Shown in pieces: positions 4,806 through 13,876 of a stretch of 21,704 nucleotides of DNA (positions are counted from its first letter, which is position 1; each line of letters opens with the position of its first letter). The stretch spans positions 1 to 21,704 of IMG/VR virus record IMGVR_UViG_3300047121_000639; one strand, given 5' to 3'. Position numbers and translations under genes: made by a program. A model generated the notes under the pieces. It saw nothing but the letters and a program-made list of their open reading frames with translations, did no database searches and was not told the DNA's origin. Source of the stretch: a virus.

Positions 4806-5057
4806 TTATTCCTTTGGTGCGGGGTTGATTTTATCACGCATAGCTTCAATGTTTTGATTAACATTGATAAGAATTGCAGTATAGCCACATGTGACAATAC
4901 CAACAATAAGAATACCTAGTGCAGACATAACTGCAGGTAAAAAGTTATCAAACATTTCACCGAAAAATGTTATACCTGCCATAACAACAAATATAAGTGC
5001 CAATAATTTATTCAAAACATCAAGTGATTCAACTATCTTACGATTGAATGATCCCAT
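4806..5057 (-). CDS. Small two-TM membrane protein, first gene of membrane operon
   Basis: The 83 aa protein has two hydrophobic segments (about 16-34 and 39-63), a short amphipathic N-terminus and a charged tail. The start has a strong Shine-Dalgarno (AAGGAG, spacing 7) and lies about 25 bases below the -10 box of a sigma70-like promoter. It resembles holin-like small proteins in topology only; four more genes follow in the same operon and no endolysin is near, so I do not call it a holin. Confidence 0.7.
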   Translation of the reverse strand: MGSFNRKIVESLDVLNKLLALIFVVMAGITFFGEMFDNFLPAVMSALGILIVGIVTCGYTAILINVNQNIEAMRDKINPAPKE

Positions 5058-5081
5058 TAAATTCTCCTTAAGAATAATACT

Positions 5082-5110
5082 ATTGTATCAAAATTACCGA
5101 GTTGAGTCAA
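5082..5110 (-). promoter_or_regulatory. sigma70 promoter for membrane-protein operon
   Basis: On the minus strand TTGACT (5110-5105), 17-base spacer, TACAAT (5087-5082). The TGA stop of the nitroreductase gene (5109-5107) is inside the -35 hexamer. The spacer does not carry the class A core. Confidence 0.7.
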
Positions 5111-5796
5111 TAAAATTGAGCAAAATTGTCAACTATTTCTCGCTCTGTTGTTAATTTGTTGGCAAGTTCTTGTTGGTTTTCATATCCCATAGCCATACCA
5201 CAAATTACAAGATCATCGTTTAAATTTAATTTTTCACGTATGTAACCTTGAATTAAAATCCATGCTGCTTGTGGACATGTTGCCAAACCATGAGATTGTG
5301 CTGATATCATTATACTTTGTATAAACATACCAAAGTCTAACAACGATCCTATAGATAATTTTGGATTCATTGTGAAAATTAATCCTACAGGCGCACCAAA
5401 AAAATTATAATTTTTGGTATGTTGGGTTTGCATAGCATCTTTGTCTTTTTTCTCTATACCTAACACTGCATAAAGATCATATCCTACTTTACGCCTACGT
5501 TCAATATATGGACTAAACCACTCAGTAGGATAGTAGTCAAATGGTTTTTTAGGTTGCTTAGCCATCAACTCAGGATTAGCATAAGTTTCCATCGCACCTT
5601 GCCCAAATTCTACTAGAAAATTACCTGTTAACACATGTACTTTCCATGGTTGTATATTGGTTCCACTTGGGCTACGTGATGCTACAGTAAGTATATGTTT
5701 AATTAATTGTGGGTCAACAGATTGCTCCGTAAACCCACGTACACTTTTCCTACTAGCAATCACAACATCTACTACCGTATGGTAGTTATTTTGCAT
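5107..5796 (-). CDS. Nitroreductase-family FMN oxidoreductase
   Basis: The 229 aa protein is a full-length nitroreductase. It has the N-terminal FMN-phosphate signature RKSVRGF (16-22), the segment SRSPSGTNIQPWKV (40-53) that lines the flavin in this superfamily, the central GAPVGLIF strand (135-142), GLATCPQA (170-177) and the C-terminal GMAMGYE loop (200-206). Family members reduce nitroaromatics, quinones or other acceptors with NAD(P)H and act as cytoplasmic homodimers; the substrate cannot be told here. The start overlaps the end of the Bug gene by 11 bases, so it is in the same operon and probably coupled. Its TGA stop is part of the next promoter. Such a gene is unusual in a phage; it looks intact, with no frameshift, which suggests selection. 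Roles could be redox balance or detoxification during infection, by inference. Confidence 0.9.
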   Translation of the reverse strand: MQNNYHTVVDVVIASRKSVRGFTEQSVDPQLIKHILTVASRSPSGTNIQPWKVHVLTGNFLVEFGQGAMETYANPELMAKQPKKPFDYYPTEWFSPYIERRRKVGYDLYAVLGIEKKDKDAMQTQHTKNYNFFGAPVGLIFTMNPKLSIGSLLDFGMFIQSIMISAQSHGLATCPQAAWILIQGYIREKLNLNDDLVICGMAMGYENQQELANKLTTEREIVDNFAQFY

Positions 5797-6745
5797 CTTT
5801 AACTAACCCTGCCTTGATTAATAATGGTCTAACATCACGAAAATATTGTGCAGCATATGCTTCAAATTCTTGTGGTGTTTTAGTCCATGGAACTAATACA
5901 AACTTTTTCATCAATTCCTGCATTTCAGGTTCTTTTAAAATATCAGTAACCGCATCATGTATAGCTTGTGCAACATGATCAGGTGTACCTTTTGGCGCAA
6001 CTAATCCATATGGACTTTGACCAATTACTTTAATACCTTTTTCAGTTAACGTAGGCACATTAGGATACTTTGCAACACGTTTTTCTGTTGCCATCGCTAA
6101 TGCCCTAAATTGTCCACTATCAACAAATGGTGCCCAATTAGATGCATCAGCCACAAATTGTACCTCACCTGCTAGTAATGCTTGGTTAAATTCAGTGCCA
6201 CCTTTATAAGGCACGTTAGTAAATTTAGCATTAGTGGTATTATCAATTTCTATCATCATAAGTTGACCACCACCCCCAACTCCTACGGTAGCATAGTTAT
6301 ACTTATTAGGTTCAGCTTTACCCGCAGCAATCAAATCATCTAATGATTTCCATGGACTATCAGCACGAACAATAATACCCAACGTATAAGCATTCATACC
6401 AACCACATACTTAAAATCACGTATTGGGTGCCATGACAGTTCATTATAGTGTGGATATCGCCAACTATTCACCGTCAAAATAGCTAGTGTATGTCCATCA
6501 GGCTTAGCAGTGGTCAGTGATGCTGCAGCTAATGTTCCCGCAGCACCTAACCTATTTTGCACAATGACAGGTTGTTTCCAACGTTCAGATAATTTTGTTG
6601 CAATATATCGTAGTTGTTGGTCAGTTACCCCACCTGCAGGAAATGGGTTTAACATCGTTACTGTATATGATGGAACCCATTTATCCTGTGCAAACGTTAT
6701 ACTACTTAAAACCAAAGACAAACCAATTACAAATTTTTTAAACAT
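5786..6745 (-). CDS. Bug/TctC-family periplasmic substrate-binding protein
   Basis: The 319 aa protein has a Sec signal peptide (cleavage likely after residue 19, TFA|Q) and the full Bug plan: PFPAGGVTD (34-42) and VIVQNRLGAAGTLAA (60-74), which form the carboxylate-binding loops in this family, then KPDGHTL (81-87) and a second lobe with the usual YKGG.....LLAGEVQ and PTLTEKG segments. Length is standard (about 320). Bug proteins bind mostly carboxylates or related small molecules in the periplasm, sometimes feeding a TctAB transporter and often as orphans; no transporter genes are here. The start shares one base with the stop of the acidic zinc-ribbon gene (TAATG), and nitroreductase overlaps its end, so it belongs to the long ligase operon. 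Base composition looks like its neighbours. A phage-borne Bug protein implies acquisition from a betaproteobacterium-like host. Confidence 0.93.
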   Translation of the reverse strand: MFKKFVIGLSLVLSSITFAQDKWVPSYTVTMLNPFPAGGVTDQQLRYIATKLSERWKQPVIVQNRLGAAGTLAAASLTTAKPDGHTLAILTVNSWRYPHYNELSWHPIRDFKYVVGMNAYTLGIIVRADSPWKSLDDLIAAGKAEPNKYNYATVGVGGGGQLMMIEIDNTTNAKFTNVPYKGGTEFNQALLAGEVQFVADASNWAPFVDSGQFRALAMATEKRVAKYPNVPTLTEKGIKVIGQSPYGLVAPKGTPDHVAQAIHDAVTDILKEPEMQELMKKFVLVPWTKTPQEFEAYAAQYFRDVRPLLIKAGLVKDAK

Positions 6746-7938
6746 TATTTTACCTCATGTACAGAATAATCTGCCCACTGTCCTCTCCAATTATTGTACT
6801 CCTCATCAATACCTTCATCATCAAGCTGTTCATTGTCATAAAAAATACCTTTAATATGACTAGTACCATCAACATCTACCGTGGTAATTTTAAATTTAGC
6901 TAAGTCTAAATCTTCATTAACAACTAATGTATGTTGATATGACCCACCTTTACCACCTTGTTTGTACATAAGAAAGTAACCTGATCCGTATGAATGTGCA
7001 TACAATTCATCAACTTCTTCACAACATTCTTCCCTTGAATCTTCTTCACCATGTCCGATATTAAAAATTTCAGAGAATTCACCTTCAAAGATAGTTTCAC
7101 CATCGCTATTAATAATTTCTACCGTACAATCTTCTTCAATCCCATAAAAGTCTGCTACATCATTGAATTCATAGTATCCACTACTAGTAAAACGTGCAGC
7201 TTCAGGAGTTTCATTTTCATCGAAATCATATTCTTCATTAATAGCAGCACCTAAGTCTAATTCATGTTCATCCATGCTCCAATGTTCGTATTGTTCTTTA
7301 GTAATTCTTCCAACACCAACTTCAGTGGTACGACCAAAAATACGGATAATATATTCACCTGCGGGATGTATACGTTGATATTCTGATTCAGCTTCAGTAT
7401 CATCATCCAACTCAATATCATCAAGTTCTTGGTACAGTTTTTGCATTTTGGCTTCTTGCTCAACACCTTCAGGGGTAAGTTCTAACGCACTATCGCACAT
7501 TGGGCATACATCACCTGTGTGATGAAATTCTAGTTCATCATCAGTGTGAATAGATCCATCTTCATTATAAAATTCAGTTTTAGTTTCGTATTTGCTACCT
7601 TTCCAACGACATTTGGTGCATTTATGTGTAGGTGAAGGAGGTTCAGGTTCACTATGCCAACTATTTTCATCACCTAATTCATATGTAATTTCATAACCAC
7701 CTTTGCGGTCACTATACCAATCATCATATTGGCGTTCCCACATAATTTCAACATCATTATCCCAAGCATGTTCAATAAGCTCATCAATATCATATGAGCC
7801 ATCTTCTACCGCATCAAGAATTGATTGTAGTTCATCTTCATCCTTATCAGGATAAATTTCTTGTAACAAGTCTATATCAAGCTCAACGGCAAATTGACTA
7901 TCAACACTATGCCATTCATGTTTAACTAACGTAACCAT
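6745..7938 (-). CDS. Large acidic protein with zinc ribbon, phage conserved type
   Basis: The 397 aa protein is very acidic (runs such as DKDEDELQ, DDIELDDDTEAESE) and contains one zinc-ribbon-like unit formed by CTKC (107-110) and CPMC (145-148). The N-terminus (about 15-60) is a short acidic helical region and the middle has aromatic-rich beta segments. Strong acidity suggests nucleic-acid mimicry or binding to a basic partner; this is inference. The next gene, Bug, starts on the last base of its stop. A nine-base gap separates it from the 82 aa gene before it. I do not recognise a named family. Confidence 0.75.
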   Translation of the reverse strand: MVTLVKHEWHSVDSQFAVELDIDLLQEIYPDKDEDELQSILDAVEDGSYDIDELIEHAWDNDVEIMWERQYDDWYSDRKGGYEITYELGDENSWHSEPEPPSPTHKCTKCRWKGSKYETKTEFYNEDGSIHTDDELEFHHTGDVCPMCDSALELTPEGVEQEAKMQKLYQELDDIELDDDTEAESEYQRIHPAGEYIIRIFGRTTEVGVGRITKEQYEHWSMDEHELDLGAAINEEYDFDENETPEAARFTSSGYYEFNDVADFYGIEEDCTVEIINSDGETIFEGEFSEIFNIGHGEEDSREECCEEVDELYAHSYGSGYFLMYKQGGKGGSYQHTLVVNEDLDLAKFKITTVDVDGTSHIKGIFYDNEQLDDEGIDEEYNNWRGQWADYSVHEVK

Positions 7939-7947
7939 ATTTTTCCT

Positions 7948-8196
7948 TTATGAATATTTCAATTTAATGTACGTAATTTCCTCGTCAGGTATGTCTACCA
8001 TAATATCACTTTCATTACTTAAATAAAAGTTATAGTTAGTAATTTTGGATAACTCATTTAAACGATCACTTACTTTAATAGCTAATGAATCTTTTAATGT
8101 TAATTTAACAATGAACTTATATTCATGTGCTTTACATAATGACGTAAACCAATTAAACACCCATGGTTCATCAATATTAAAAACATTGACAATCAT
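7948..8196 (-). CDS. Hypothetical protein, 82 aa
   Basis: Small mixed alpha/beta protein without cysteine motif or membrane segment. The ATG overlaps the TGA of the ligase gene as ATGA (8193-8196), so ligase and this protein are translationally coupled. No function can be given. Confidence 0.65.
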   Translation of the reverse strand: MIVNVFNIDEPWVFNWFTSLCKAHEYKFIVKLTLKDSLAIKVSDRLNELSKITNYNFYLSNESDIMVDIPDEEITYIKLKYS

Positions 8197-9536
8197 TTAT
8201 CATCCCTAAATCGTAGAAACCTTGGAAATCTCAATGAATGTGTACCATCCTGATTTTGCGTTACTGCATCAGCAAGAATTTCTACAGTGCGACCAACAAT
8301 CACATTACGGTTTACCCAATAATCATCACGATCAACATCACTAAACCCACTACCAACGTTAACCACAATGTGCTTTCCATGATCTTCACCTTCGCAAATT
8401 AATGCGCCTAATCGATTTTTATTACGTCCTGTACCTGCTTCTACCCCAACAATCTCTAAATCTACTGAAATGGTTGGTTTCCATTTTAACCAAAATTTAT
8501 TACGTTTGCACTCATATGGAGCATCTACACTTTTAATCATAATGCCCTCAAACCCTTGTGCAACACAATCGTTGGCATAACGCTCTAGTTGATCCTTACC
8601 CTCAGCAATGTCTAAATCAACGACAATATGTGGCAACAATTTGACATGTGGCATATTTTCTAGGGCAGGACGCATATCTTCTAAGATCTTAATTCGTTTG
8701 CTTAATTGTGCGTTCCAATATCCACGCCTAAAATCTGCTAGCGGAAGAATATCAAATACATGGAACACACTATCGCTAGCATCAGCATTGTCTTTTCTAC
8801 GTGCTTGTCGCATTAAGTCTTGAAATGATTCACCCATTACTTCACCATCAAGCACAAATCCTGTATTTAAATTACTTGATGATGCTAGGCGAATCATACG
8901 GACAAAATTATTTTTTACTTCTTCTTCAATGTGTGTAAAATTATTGAATACTTTACCATTACGACTGTAGCATGTTACGACAATTTTATCATCATAGTCA
9001 GAGGGTGGTATAACAACCATTAATACTCGTACACCATCTAGTTTAGGTTCAAGACGTTTAACACCCACCATTTCAGGGCGACCTTCGCTATCAGTGGCAA
9101 GTTGGCAAGAAAAAATCGGTATTTCGTATTCAGTATTTTTACAAATCTTGTTGATAGTTTTATCAGATATACCACAACGTAAATCTTTGCCAATCACATT
9201 GATACAGAAATCATTCCATGTTGGGCTATTAAATCTTACGCTCATAGCTTCAATAGCATCATGTGCAGCATTACCTGTTAAAGTACGTAAAGCTAATTCT
9301 ATTAACAATGAGCTAAAGTCTTGCCATGGGTTTTCAGCATTGATAATACCAACAGTTGGTTCTACAGCTTTTACACCAAAAGTGGTAAATGGATCATAAG
9401 CAAAGTATACAAATTTAAGAAAGTGTTTACAATTTTCATCACCTAGCGTAGCTAAATTTAAAACTTCTTGTATAACTGATTCTTTATGTAACCGACTATT
9501 ACTCTCGTTCAGCTTATAGATCCATGATTCAAGCAT
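8193..9536 (-). CDS. ATP-dependent DNA ligase (T4 gp30-like)
   Basis: The 447 aa protein carries the complete nucleotidyltransferase motif set of ATP-dependent DNA ligases in order: motif I EPKLDGVR with the adenylated lysine K165, SRNGK (191-195), motif III LDGEV (229-233), VFDILP (260-265; motif IIIa), motif IV EGIMIK (330-335) and motif V WLKWKP (349-354). A C-terminal OB domain follows (about 355-447). The N-terminal 150 residues form the helical DNA-binding region typical of the T4/viral type. It seals nicks in duplex DNA during phage replication and repair. Length is close to T4 ligase (487). The start is two bases after the stop of the ribbon-helix-helix gene, and the downstream 82 aa gene overlaps its stop. 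The presence of all motifs indicates an active enzyme. Confidence 0.96.
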   Translation of the reverse strand: MLESWIYKLNESNSRLHKESVIQEVLNLATLGDENCKHFLKFVYFAYDPFTTFGVKAVEPTVGIINAENPWQDFSSLLIELALRTLTGNAAHDAIEAMSVRFNSPTWNDFCINVIGKDLRCGISDKTINKICKNTEYEIPIFSCQLATDSEGRPEMVGVKRLEPKLDGVRVLMVVIPPSDYDDKIVVTCYSRNGKVFNNFTHIEEEVKNNFVRMIRLASSSNLNTGFVLDGEVMGESFQDLMRQARRKDNADASDSVFHVFDILPLADFRRGYWNAQLSKRIKILEDMRPALENMPHVKLLPHIVVDLDIAEGKDQLERYANDCVAQGFEGIMIKSVDAPYECKRNKFWLKWKPTISVDLEIVGVEAGTGRNKNRLGALICEGEDHGKHIVVNVGSGFSDVDRDDYWVNRNVIVGRTVEILADAVTQNQDGTHSLRFPRFLRFRDDK

Positions 9537-12399: not shown

Positions 12400-12410
12400 C
12401 CTGTAGGGTT
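12395..12410 (-). repeat. Class B promoter upstream repeat, copy 1
   Basis: Sixteen bases (minus strand AACCCTACAGGTTGAC) are identical at 12395-12410, 12669-12684 and 12916-12931, each including most of a -35 box. AACC and GGTT can pair around CTACA. This could be an operator or remains of a copied cassette. Confidence 0.85.
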
Positions 12411-12615
12411 ATTCAACTCCGAAATGTTCTTTTACATATCTATCAACTTGGACTGTAATATCTTCGTTGCTGGAGGTGTCTAGGCAATTTCTGTAAAAAT
12501 CTACAATACATTCCCTAACAATCAACTCGGCAAACTTTTCAATCTGCCCTTGTTGAGCATCGTAGTATGGCTGTAGACCAGATTGAGTTAATAGTTCTTT
12601 AATTCGTTCGTTCAT
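12409..12615 (-). CDS. MNERI-family small phage protein, copy A (68 aa)
   Basis: Start at 12615 chosen over a longer frame because GGAG lies 7 bases upstream and because the paralogs at 13147 and 13661 begin with the same MNERI. Shared blocks are the N-terminal helix MNERIKELL, the centre EKFAELIVREC and the end VKEHFGVE. The family is all-helical by appearance, of unknown function, and I recall it from environmental phage genomes. This copy has its own class B promoter, unlike its paralogs, and lacks the zinc tail seen in the 118 aa copy. Confidence 0.75.
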   Translation of the reverse strand: MNERIKELLTQSGLQPYYDAQQGQIEKFAELIVRECIVDFYRNCLDTSSNEDITVQVDRYVKEHFGVE

Positions 12616-12644
12616 TTGCTGCTCCTTTTGTTTACTGTAAGCAC

Positions 12645-12673
12645 AGTATAGCACTAGTCCAAAGACCCGTCAA
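12645..12673 (-). promoter_or_regulatory. sigma70 promoter, class B
   Basis: Minus strand TTGACG (12673-12668), 17-base spacer GGTCTTTGGACTAGTGC, TATACT (12650-12645). The stop of the 63 aa gene is TGA (12672-12670) within the -35 box. Confidence 0.85.
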
Positions 12674-12684
12674 CCTGTAGGGTT
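12669..12684 (-). repeat. Class B promoter upstream repeat, copy 2
   Basis: Same 16 bases as 12395-12410; here they also encode the last residues (NPTG) and the stop codon of the 63 aa gene. Confidence 0.85.
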
Positions 12685-12861
12685 AAAACAAAACAGAGAC
12701 ACTGGAGGAATCTTAGATTGGGCAGAGTTCTTGTTCAGAATGTGTTGATACTTTTCAGGGTGAGCCTTCATGTCTTCCAACTTCTTGTAGAATCGCTCTT
12801 CAATCAACTCCATTTGATCTGGTTCATTGAAAAACTCTTTGATCTTCTTGAAAATGCTCAT
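12670..12861 (-). CDS. Small hydrophilic protein, 63 aa
   Basis: The ATG at 12861 (MSIFKKIKEFF) is preferred to 12891 because GGAG lies 6-7 bases upstream and the longer form would reach into the promoter. Helical and charged (EPDQMELIEERFYKKLEDMK). The last codons read through the class B repeat, so the C-terminus NPTG may be a by-product of the promoter sequence. Confidence 0.6.
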   Translation of the reverse strand: MSIFKKIKEFFNEPDQMELIEERFYKKLEDMKAHPEKYQHILNKNSAQSKIPPVSLFCFNPTG

Positions 12862-12891
12862 CGTCTGCTCCTTGTTGTTCACTATAACCAT

Positions 12892-12920
12892 AGTATACTA
12901 CCGTTCGAATACCCTGTCAA
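12892..12920 (-). promoter_or_regulatory. sigma70 promoter, class B
   Basis: Minus strand TTGACA (12920-12915), 17-base spacer GGGTATTCGAACGGTAG, TATACT (12897-12892). Confidence 0.9.
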
Positions 12921-12931
12921 CCTGTAGGGTT
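12916..12931 (-). repeat. Class B promoter upstream repeat, copy 3
   Basis: Same 16 bases as 12395-12410, beginning within the TAA stop of the 67 aa gene. Confidence 0.85.
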
Positions 12932-13133
12932 ACTTAGCTGCGTTTTTAAGATACCAACCTGATTTAAGTTCTTTTGATAATGTACCCTTCTTGGTAAAAT
13001 GCTGTTTTAAAAACTCCGAGAACGTATGATATTCATGAATTTTGTCAATAACTTCTTCAATAGTCTTGCCATGCACAATAGTATAGCGATCTTCGCCCAT
13101 CTTAATTTCTGCTGTAATTATTTTACAACTCAT
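12930..13133 (-). CDS. Hypothetical protein, 67 aa
   Basis: Small basic alpha/beta protein (MSCKIITAEIKMGEDRY, then helix TIEEVIDKIHEY). AAGGAA precedes the ATG. It follows the 118 aa MNERI gene after 13 bases and ends directly at the class B repeat. No family recognised. Confidence 0.65.
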   Translation of the reverse strand: MSCKIITAEIKMGEDRYTIVHGKTIEEVIDKIHEYHTFSEFLKQHFTKKGTLSKELKSGWYLKNAAK

Positions 13134-13146
13134 AATTGTTCCTTAG

Positions 13147-13503
13147 TTATTTGGTAGTCAATACCATAGGGCATCGACCATCAATTGCGGCACTGTTACC
13201 TAGTGGGCAAACAGCCTTGGTGCGATCAGTGCCACACTTAGAACATACCCAACCAAGAGATTCTTCAACTCCGAAATGTTCTTTAATCTTATTGGAAACA
13301 TAAATCATAGCCTCATTAAAGCCTTCATAATATTCTCCCTTGGCTTCACTCCATTGACTTTGTTCTGAAATTTCAGCACATTCCCGTACAATCAACTCGG
13401 CGAACTTTTCTGCAAAGTCTTTACTATATGGAATGGTCACGGGATACCCATCGGGACTTTGATGTGATGCCTGTTCAGCAAGTTCTCGAATTCGTTCGTT
13501 CAT
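13147..13503 (-). CDS. MNERI-family phage protein, copy B, with C-terminal zinc knuckle (118 aa)
   Basis: Same family as 12409-12615 and 13661-13876 (MNERIRELAEQA, EKFAELIVRECA, KEHFGVEE). After residue 82 a tail is added, WVCSKCGTDRTKAVCPLG...GRCPM, with cysteines at 87, 90, 99 and 111 that can form one zinc site. The start ATG overlaps the TGA of the 54 aa gene (13500-13503). The fused tail suggests nucleic-acid or protein binding, by inference. Confidence 0.8.
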   Translation of the reverse strand: MNERIRELAEQASHQSPDGYPVTIPYSKDFAEKFAELIVRECAEISEQSQWSEAKGEYYEGFNEAMIYVSNKIKEHFGVEESLGWVCSKCGTDRTKAVCPLGNSAAIDGRCPMVLTTK

Positions 13504-13504
13504 T
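13469..13504 (-). repeat. 36-base exact repeat (5' end of MNERI paralog B)
   Basis: Identical over 36 bases to 13842-13877, covering the start codon and first eleven or so codons of two paralogs. A second shared block of 23 bases is at 13388-13410 and 13761-13783, and with one mismatch at 12528-12550. This indicates recent duplication or gene conversion. Confidence 0.9.
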
Positions 13505-13664
13505 CTTTAATTCCTTGAACCATTTCGTCCAATTCTTTTGCCAAGTCATTCATACGATACCAACCCTCCATTTTTGATTTAATATAGCGATTATCATAAT
13601 AATCATTACTCTGACGTTCACGCTCGTCCAAATACTCTTCCAATACTTCAGTGAATTTTCTCAT
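13500..13664 (-). CDS. Small phage protein, 54 aa
   Basis: Reads MRKFTEVLEEYLDERERQSN, then DYYDNRYIKSKMEGWYRMND, and ends LDEMVQGIKE. The ATG overlaps the stop of the MNERI copy C gene (13661-13664) and its TGA overlaps the next ATG (13500-13503), so both ends are supported by coupling. Helical, charged, Tyr-rich; I recall similar short proteins in environmental phages. No function. Confidence 0.75.
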   Translation of the reverse strand: MRKFTEVLEEYLDERERQSNDYYDNRYIKSKMEGWYRMNDLAKELDEMVQGIKE

Positions 13665-13876
13665 TCTTCAACTCCAAAATATTTTAATATAGCAGATTCG
13701 CCCGAAGCACTACCACCGTTATGTTGCCATTCCTCAAATGCTATGTTAGCACATTCTCTAACAATCAACTCGGCGAACTTTTCAATAAACTCATTCGGAA
13801 TATTATAATCTCCAAAATGGAATTCTGAAATAATATCACCAGCCTGTTCAGCAAGTTCTCGAATTCGTTCGTTCAT
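13661..13876 (-). CDS. MNERI-family small phage protein, copy C (71 aa)
   Basis: Shares MNERIRELAEQA, EKFAELIVRECA and a FGVEE end with copies A and B, with nearly identical DNA in the first 36 bases to copy B. GGAA lies about 7 bases before the ATG. It overlaps the preceding 88 aa gene by 29 bases and the 54 aa gene by 4. Confidence 0.8.
   Translation of the reverse strand: MNERIRELAEQAGDIISEFHFGDYNIPNEFIEKFAELIVRECANIAFEEWQHNGGSASGESAILKYFGVEE

Follow-up and report, generated by a model that had tools for sequence, protein, structure and literature searches.

A Bug/TctC-type binding protein and a nitroreductase-family partner as candidate auxiliary cargo in a T4-related jumbo phage lineage

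The virus record G000 comprises 21,704 bases, and this whole stretch of DNA is referred to here as the window. On its minus strand lies a co-directional run of genes, of which the ATP-dependent DNA ligase (8193..9536; PHROG 114, 320.6 bits) is the first one considered, followed by a small ORF of 82 aa taken from the ORF list (7948..8196), an acidic phage protein of 397 aa (6745..7938), a Bug/TctC periplasmic substrate-binding protein of 319 aa (5786..6745) and a nitroreductase-family flavoprotein of 229 aa (5107..5796; PF00881, 90.7 bits), with all gaps or overlaps being 11 bp or shorter. The acidic protein, the left neighbor of Bug, is conserved and aligned in relatives and gave no Pfam or PHROG match. 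Its stop codon TAA overlaps the ATG of the Bug ORF in a TAATG junction, as an earlier sequence-only reading had claimed, and the Bug and nitroreductase genes in turn overlap by 11 bp. The same reading had placed Bug in one operon with the ligase; the shared direction and the tight spacing stand, and we describe the run more cautiously as operon-like, as read from the genes alone. The right neighbor of the pair, also on the minus strand, is a small membrane-type protein of 83 aa (4806..5057), delimited by its ORF and the junction alignment.

The UvsX-like, gp32-like SSB and ATP ligase proteins of the window match PHROGs, which identifies a phage contig, and the UvsX protein is 64-67% identical to those of Vibrio phage 2.275.O, Atu_ph07, CBB and GAP32. 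Judged from these proteins, the core genes are of the T4-related jumbo phage type, within a phage group which we take to be Rak2-like. A decayed bacterial chromosome carrying degraded phage genes, the case that the sequence-only reading had held against itself, is unlikely and was rejected given the PHROG matches of the core genes, the UvsX identity and the status as a virus record. Elsewhere in the window, two adjacent proteins (482-1591 and 1593-2276) have signal- or lipoprotein-like N-termini and no Pfam match above cut-off, and are possible phage envelope proteins; this stretch (482-2276) aligns in near relatives. Furthermore, three small ORFs (12409-12654, 13147-13503 and 13661-13876) have a common MNERIREL...FAELIVREC pattern by eye, and the stretch that holds them (12409-13876) varies between relatives.

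The Bug ORF begins with ATG, has no internal stop and matches the TctC family PF03401 with an E-value of 3.4e-67 over profile positions 3-271 of 274, the score of 227.3 bits against a cut-off of 27 indicating that the match is not due to chance. In a PDB sequence search, 2dvz was the nearest solved sequence (E 1.5e-38). Moreover, an AlphaFold model built from the window protein and six viral-contig relatives (mean pLDDT 85.5) had Bug27 (2qpq) as its top fold match (Z 37.4, rmsd 1.9, 291 aligned), and the first eleven solved-fold matches were all TctC-type with Z 31.5-37.4, the next row following at Z 17.4. As modeled, the phage protein has a complete two-lobed Bug-type binding-protein fold. 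Nine bacterial orthologs agree at 164 positions, of which the mature phage protein retains 118; the share is 43 of 49 in motif windows representing putative ligand contacts and 75 of 115 elsewhere, a comparison that is no valid test since the windows were picked after viewing the alignment. The N-terminus appears signal-peptide-like by eye (MFKK, a hydrophobic core, SSITFA and then QDKW), and the earlier description of an intact, signal-peptide-bearing Bug protein thus holds for the ORF, the family match and the N-terminus. In family and fold, the window protein resembles TTT-family Bug/TctC proteins (Bug27, 2qpq; AdpC/Rpa4515, 5oei; TphC/TBP, 7nds/8hka; BugD, 2f5x; MatC, 6hke), which likewise have a signal-like N-terminus and an orphan arrangement without TctAB nearby, whereas it differs from them in being encoded on a jumbo phage and in overlapping a nitroreductase gene. 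For this partner, 3gr3 is the nearest solved sequence (E 8.5e-61).

Two further IMG/VR contigs, of 93 and 60 kb, hold the same Bug-nitroreductase pair at 100% protein identity. These carriers match the window at 99.99% DNA identity over the 11.8-17.3 kb fetched, and both junctions, at 5796 and 6745, fall inside the continuous matches; as the carriers have other metagenome ids, independence of the three samples is likely, though not proven. A misassembled junction was judged unlikely because two near-identical contigs have identical junctions. The flanking genes are present and the pair is absent in five close relatives (L005, L006, L007, L016 and L022, representing four distinct sequences as L016 equals L022 at the pair site), which are the closest without the pair among 25 loci with a ligase relative and in which the small membrane-type gene comes directly after the acidic gene. 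Their alignments reach window positions 5058-5113 on one side and start from 6729-6768 on the other, with a short intergenic stretch between, and from these breaks the insert follows the stop of the acidic gene and precedes the small membrane gene. Among 18 related records, none of which is rated 90% complete, PF03401 and PF00881 occurred in only two, namely both carriers.

Just past the insert lies a promoter-like site, TTGACT-17-TACAAT (5082..5110, minus strand, by consensus match), whose first hexamer overlaps the nitroreductase stop. Consensus matches of this kind are not significant in themselves, with 20 in the region against an average of 25.3 after shuffling, and the promoter argument therefore rests on position. 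Inspected by eye at this place, L006 has the same hexamers at the same spacing, L016 and L022 have TATAAT instead at the same spacing, and L005 and L007 fit less well. The alignments show the pair as an insertion of 1.6 kb specific to one lineage, bounded by the stop of the acidic protein and the promoter-like site.

Investigating the bacterial relatives of Bug, we observed that 33 of 399 genomes from the order of a Burkholderiales genome match at E <= 1e-60 (best G259, 59% identical), and that 11 of 74 genomes of the family of G259 match at E <= 1e-85, with best matches being 52-59% identical. Tree building with 52 Bug/TctC proteins placed the phage Bug next to these 11 orthologs as their sister (100/94); its branch is long (0.87), which could also reflect relaxed selection, and the tree program calls its place unsure. 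An origin near Betaproteobacteria is supported by the Burkholderiales matches and by the tree; the sequence-only reading had pointed to the abundance of Bug genes in that class and had proposed a phylogeny as a check. Searching 349 genomes of the order with the nitroreductase gave 29 with a match at E <= 1e-60 (best 51%). Matches at E <= 1e-20 are present in all 11 genomes that bear a Bug ortholog, and the best matches of both searches are G452 and G449 (52%), with which the nitroreductase groups at 91/92 in a tree of 34 rows, again on a long branch (1.34). Both of these genomes also hold a Bug ortholog, located on contigs other than the one with the nitroreductase ortholog. Both gene searches and the separate contigs thus point to the same bacterial family and to no ready operon, and capture of a preexisting bacterial Bug-nitroreductase operon is unsupported. 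What links the two genes, as far as their sequences tell, is solely their overlap and their joint insertion.

The GC3 values of Bug (0.207) and nitroreductase (0.223), as well as their codon-usage correlations (0.877 and 0.839, respectively), are within the range of eleven phage genes compared. By contrast, GC content is 62-70% at nine of the 11 bacterial ortholog loci and 49-52% at the remaining two. It follows that the acquisition is not fresh or came via a low-GC carrier. A further difference concerns the leader: in all 11 bacterial orthologs, the frame ahead of a conserved AQ-x-W region has an RR pair before its hydrophobic stretch, as read by eye from frames with predicted starts, while the Sec-like leader of the phage protein, MFKKFVIGLSLVLSSITFAQDKW, showed no RR pair when compared by eye with the 11 orthologs. 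The leader would accordingly have changed from Tat-type in the bacterial orthologs to Sec-type in the phage protein. Overall, the Bug gene is, like other phage auxiliary cargo, host-derived (bacterial clade) and dispensable in close relatives (empty sites), and Bug and nitroreductase are almost certainly an inserted cassette of host origin.

The sequence-only reading had also stated that transporter genes are absent. In agreement with this, TctA (PF01970) was found in none of 12 virus records searched, all of them fragments or not rated complete and comprising the window, both carriers, seven relatives and two other TctC contigs, whereas it is present in 11 of 11 bacterial genomes with a Bug ortholog; the phage Bug protein is therefore an orphan TctC. 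In B. pertussis and its relatives, orphan Bugs commonly share a small number of TctAB sets, and the same is described for other genera (PMC5812351). The genomic context of the bacterial orthologs differs between genomes, with a luciferase-like monooxygenase, hydrolases, ABC-type uptake genes and Fe-ADH around one of them (L106) and TRAP transporter and FMN-dependent dehydrogenase genes around another (L110). Given that ORF picking in these high-GC loci was simple and is unreliable, such neighbors may suggest a connection to organic-acid breakdown and name no substrate.

Our main reading, to which we assign a probability of roughly 45%, is that the phage Bug protein is host-derived auxiliary cargo, serving as an exported carboxylate-binding subunit for host permeases. 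For its transcription, export, ligand class, permease use and benefit we infer the following course. The two-gene cassette in one Rak2-like lineage would probably be transcribed by read-through from the ligase/acidic-protein run, and the Bug protein would be exported through Sec into the periplasm of the infected cell, where it may close on a small, probably carboxylate, ligand and pass it on to a permease of the host, the simplest candidate being TctAB, whose presence in the host is assumed here. Uptake of one substrate by the infected cell could thereby be raised or redirected, with the phage providing the binding subunit only, as with phage PstS, and the nitroreductase, a putative cytosolic NAD(P)H-flavin enzyme, perhaps acting on the imported compound or meeting another need. 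Cyanophage pstS is usually found without its permease genes. That uptake is the benefit of the cassette to the phage is a reading which we favor tentatively and at somewhat less than even odds. Raised carboxylate uptake by the infected cell, as the sequence-only reading had suggested, stays plausible; its other suggestion, a surface or decoy function, drew no support from the analysis. PstS of T4-like cyanophages, too, is a periplasmic binding subunit that a T4-related phage has acquired from its host (PMC6359870); the window protein differs in belonging to another family, in presumably binding a carboxylate and not phosphate, and in being known from its genes alone.

The least unlikely of the alternatives is that the phage took up the pair by accident and has kept it with little effect, selection on it being weak or absent. 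The long branches of Bug (0.87) and nitroreductase (1.34) would fit this, as would the restriction of the pair to a single near-identical lineage, but both frames are intact, the phage-like codon usage suggests long residence and the Bug protein has kept 118 of 164 invariant positions, and we regard chance persistence as unlikely on balance. Unlikely as well is a role in signaling or sensing, in which the ligand-loaded Bug protein would act on a sensor or a membrane protein of the host, altering host gene expression rather than uptake. Such a role has been proposed for the excess of orphan Bugs, and citrate-bound BctC of B. pertussis regulates as well as transports (PMC5812351); signaling would, however, depend on the Bug protein fitting a particular host protein, for which the window gives no indication. 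Quite improbable is sequestration or protection, with Bug buffering a toxic or signaling compound and the nitroreductase detoxifying the same class (nitro-aromatics, quinones) in the cytosol: the joint insertion with a nitroreductase-family gene and the existence of phage nitroreductases in PHROG 18935, to which the window protein has a weak match of 26.4 bits, speak for it, yet a single binding protein would be a poor stoichiometric sink. Finally, an assembly artefact joining a bacterial fragment to a phage contig is hardly credible in view of the identical junctions in two IMG/VR contigs with different metagenome ids, the phage-like codon usage of the pair and the non-adjacent Bug and nitroreductase orthologs in the bacteria examined.

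Compared with the uptake reading, which concerns a single lineage, the occurrence of TctC proteins in other phages is a wider question, and here the statement of the sequence-only reading that Bug is no usual phage cargo needs to be divided. It stands for the annotated phage collection, in which tblastn with Bug gave four weak records and none with an annotated isolate-phage Bug: two faecal scaffolds lacking annotation and two Salmonella records, one of S. enterica (691 kb) and one of a Salmonella phage (2,964 bases). The S. enterica record (AGRM01000002.1) itself looks bacterial. As a general statement it is too strong in view of phage Bugs already named in BFVD and of the TctC frames in 23 of 42 contigs described below. 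Five BFVD proteins of uncultured Caudovirales phages (A0A6J5T247, A0A6J5L7K0, A0A6J5T9X7, A0A6J5M1T7 and A0A6J5LDG7), already named PBP2_Bug_TTT or Bordetella uptake protein, belong to the same fold family as the window Bug, although they are only 17-22% identical to it by structural alignment. For the nitroreductase, the phage collection yielded two records of one name. One of these, L152 (CAKLQH020000002.1, 'Acinetobacter phage MD-2021a'), was rejected as a precedent because its match is flanked by genes of chromosome type (sbmA, tdcB, cysJ).

IMG/VR searches with Bug alignments returned 4 and 10 loci, which comprised the carriers, small or edge contigs and two large contigs, L124 and L137; these searches ran via short peptide patterns, and viral Bug counts are therefore lower bounds. 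In both large contigs, a gene encoding a PP-loop-like motif borders directly on TctC. In the Bug/TctC tree their TctC proteins lie apart from the window Bug, although their branches are very long. The label PP-loop-like rests on an SGGxDS motif seen by eye and on a weak QueC match (25 bits) of a neighboring related protein; three members of the family had no Pfam match, and a PDB sequence search gave nothing convincing. A search with this family yielded 42 distinct contigs, and a home-made TctC profile detected 30 TctC frames, one of them with only 37 bits, in 23 of them (L138, L139, L141-L143, L145-L147, L156, L159-L161, L165-L168, L171, L176-L178, L182, L184 and, weakly, L185), a proportion that is not an unbiased rate because the search seeds were themselves TctC neighbors. 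All 30 frames are on the same strand as the PP-loop-like frame, with 23 overlapping it or lying within 67 bp and the other seven 0.9-2.1 kb off; grouping them at 90% identity leaves 20 clusters, and at 35% identity 14. TctC exceeded the Pfam cut-off in 5 of 5, 8 of 10 and, in L137, 2 of 2 cases, and also in L124. Counted outside the 23 of 42, though with TctC frames, are three contigs of 4.6-5.8 kb (L129, L123 and L136), four records of 12-19 kb with TctC near their ends (L131-L134), which were taken by eye for prophage edges, and L130. The last of these is a 55-kb viral contig with a TctC gene at 7959-8930 and 70% GC in the part fetched.

P450, desaturase and hydroxylase genes were found in L137 and L142 by Pfam and in L141, L145, L148 and L150 by blastp grouping. 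L141, L142, L145, L147, L148 and L150 share a conserved gene cluster, biosynthetic by the look of its gene content, in which small repeated families and several PP-loop-like proteins accompany a fatty-acid desaturase and a cytochrome P450. One of these loci, L150, belongs to G009, a relative of the window phage with 348 kb. G009 is the one record with the PP-loop-like family among 19 of the window phage group, and the family is absent from the window and its two carrier records, so that the window Bug represents a separate arrangement. The TctC proteins that abut a PP-loop-like gene (L138, L141, L145, L147 and others) share with the window Bug the TctC family, the signal-like N-terminus and the location on a phage genome, and no TctA was found in the two such records searched; they differ in being about 23-30% identical to it (ten compared) and in having the PP-loop-like gene, and not a nitroreductase, as neighbor. 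Taken by their sequences, these contigs show that TctC capture by large phages recurs, and TctC with the PP-loop-like gene looks like a recurring phage gene pair. A more sweeping view, which we consider rather improbable, would be that large phages repeatedly capture an orphan TctC/Bug to plug the shared permeases of the host into a phage-suited substrate, here with a Tat-exported Burkholderiales Bug given a Sec leader and a nitroreductase processing the import, and elsewhere with TctC feeding the biosynthetic-looking PP-loop/P450/desaturase cluster.

The Bug family, phage-borne binding proteins and phage Bugs named in databases are already known. In the open-access literature, excluding subscription papers and preprints, we found no paper on a phage-encoded Bug/TctC, the nearest being a SUP05 viral contig with a domain match to tctA (PMC4164917), and no description of a phage TctC/PP-loop-like module. 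The SUP05 tctA is likewise a TTT-system gene on a viral contig, whereas it encodes a membrane permease, known by domain match only, and the window Bug is a binding protein.

In conclusion, the phage-encoded uptake subunits known so far are mainly those for phosphate (PstS), and an orphan carboxylate-type Bug on a jumbo phage would extend the idea of phage-borne uptake subunits to organic acids and to Burkholderiales-type hosts. Because many Bugs share few permeases in such hosts, one small protein could redirect uptake, and the phage Bug offers a handle on the role of orphan Bugs. In addition, TctC beside a PP-loop-like gene in phage contigs provides a concrete lead to a phage gene module.
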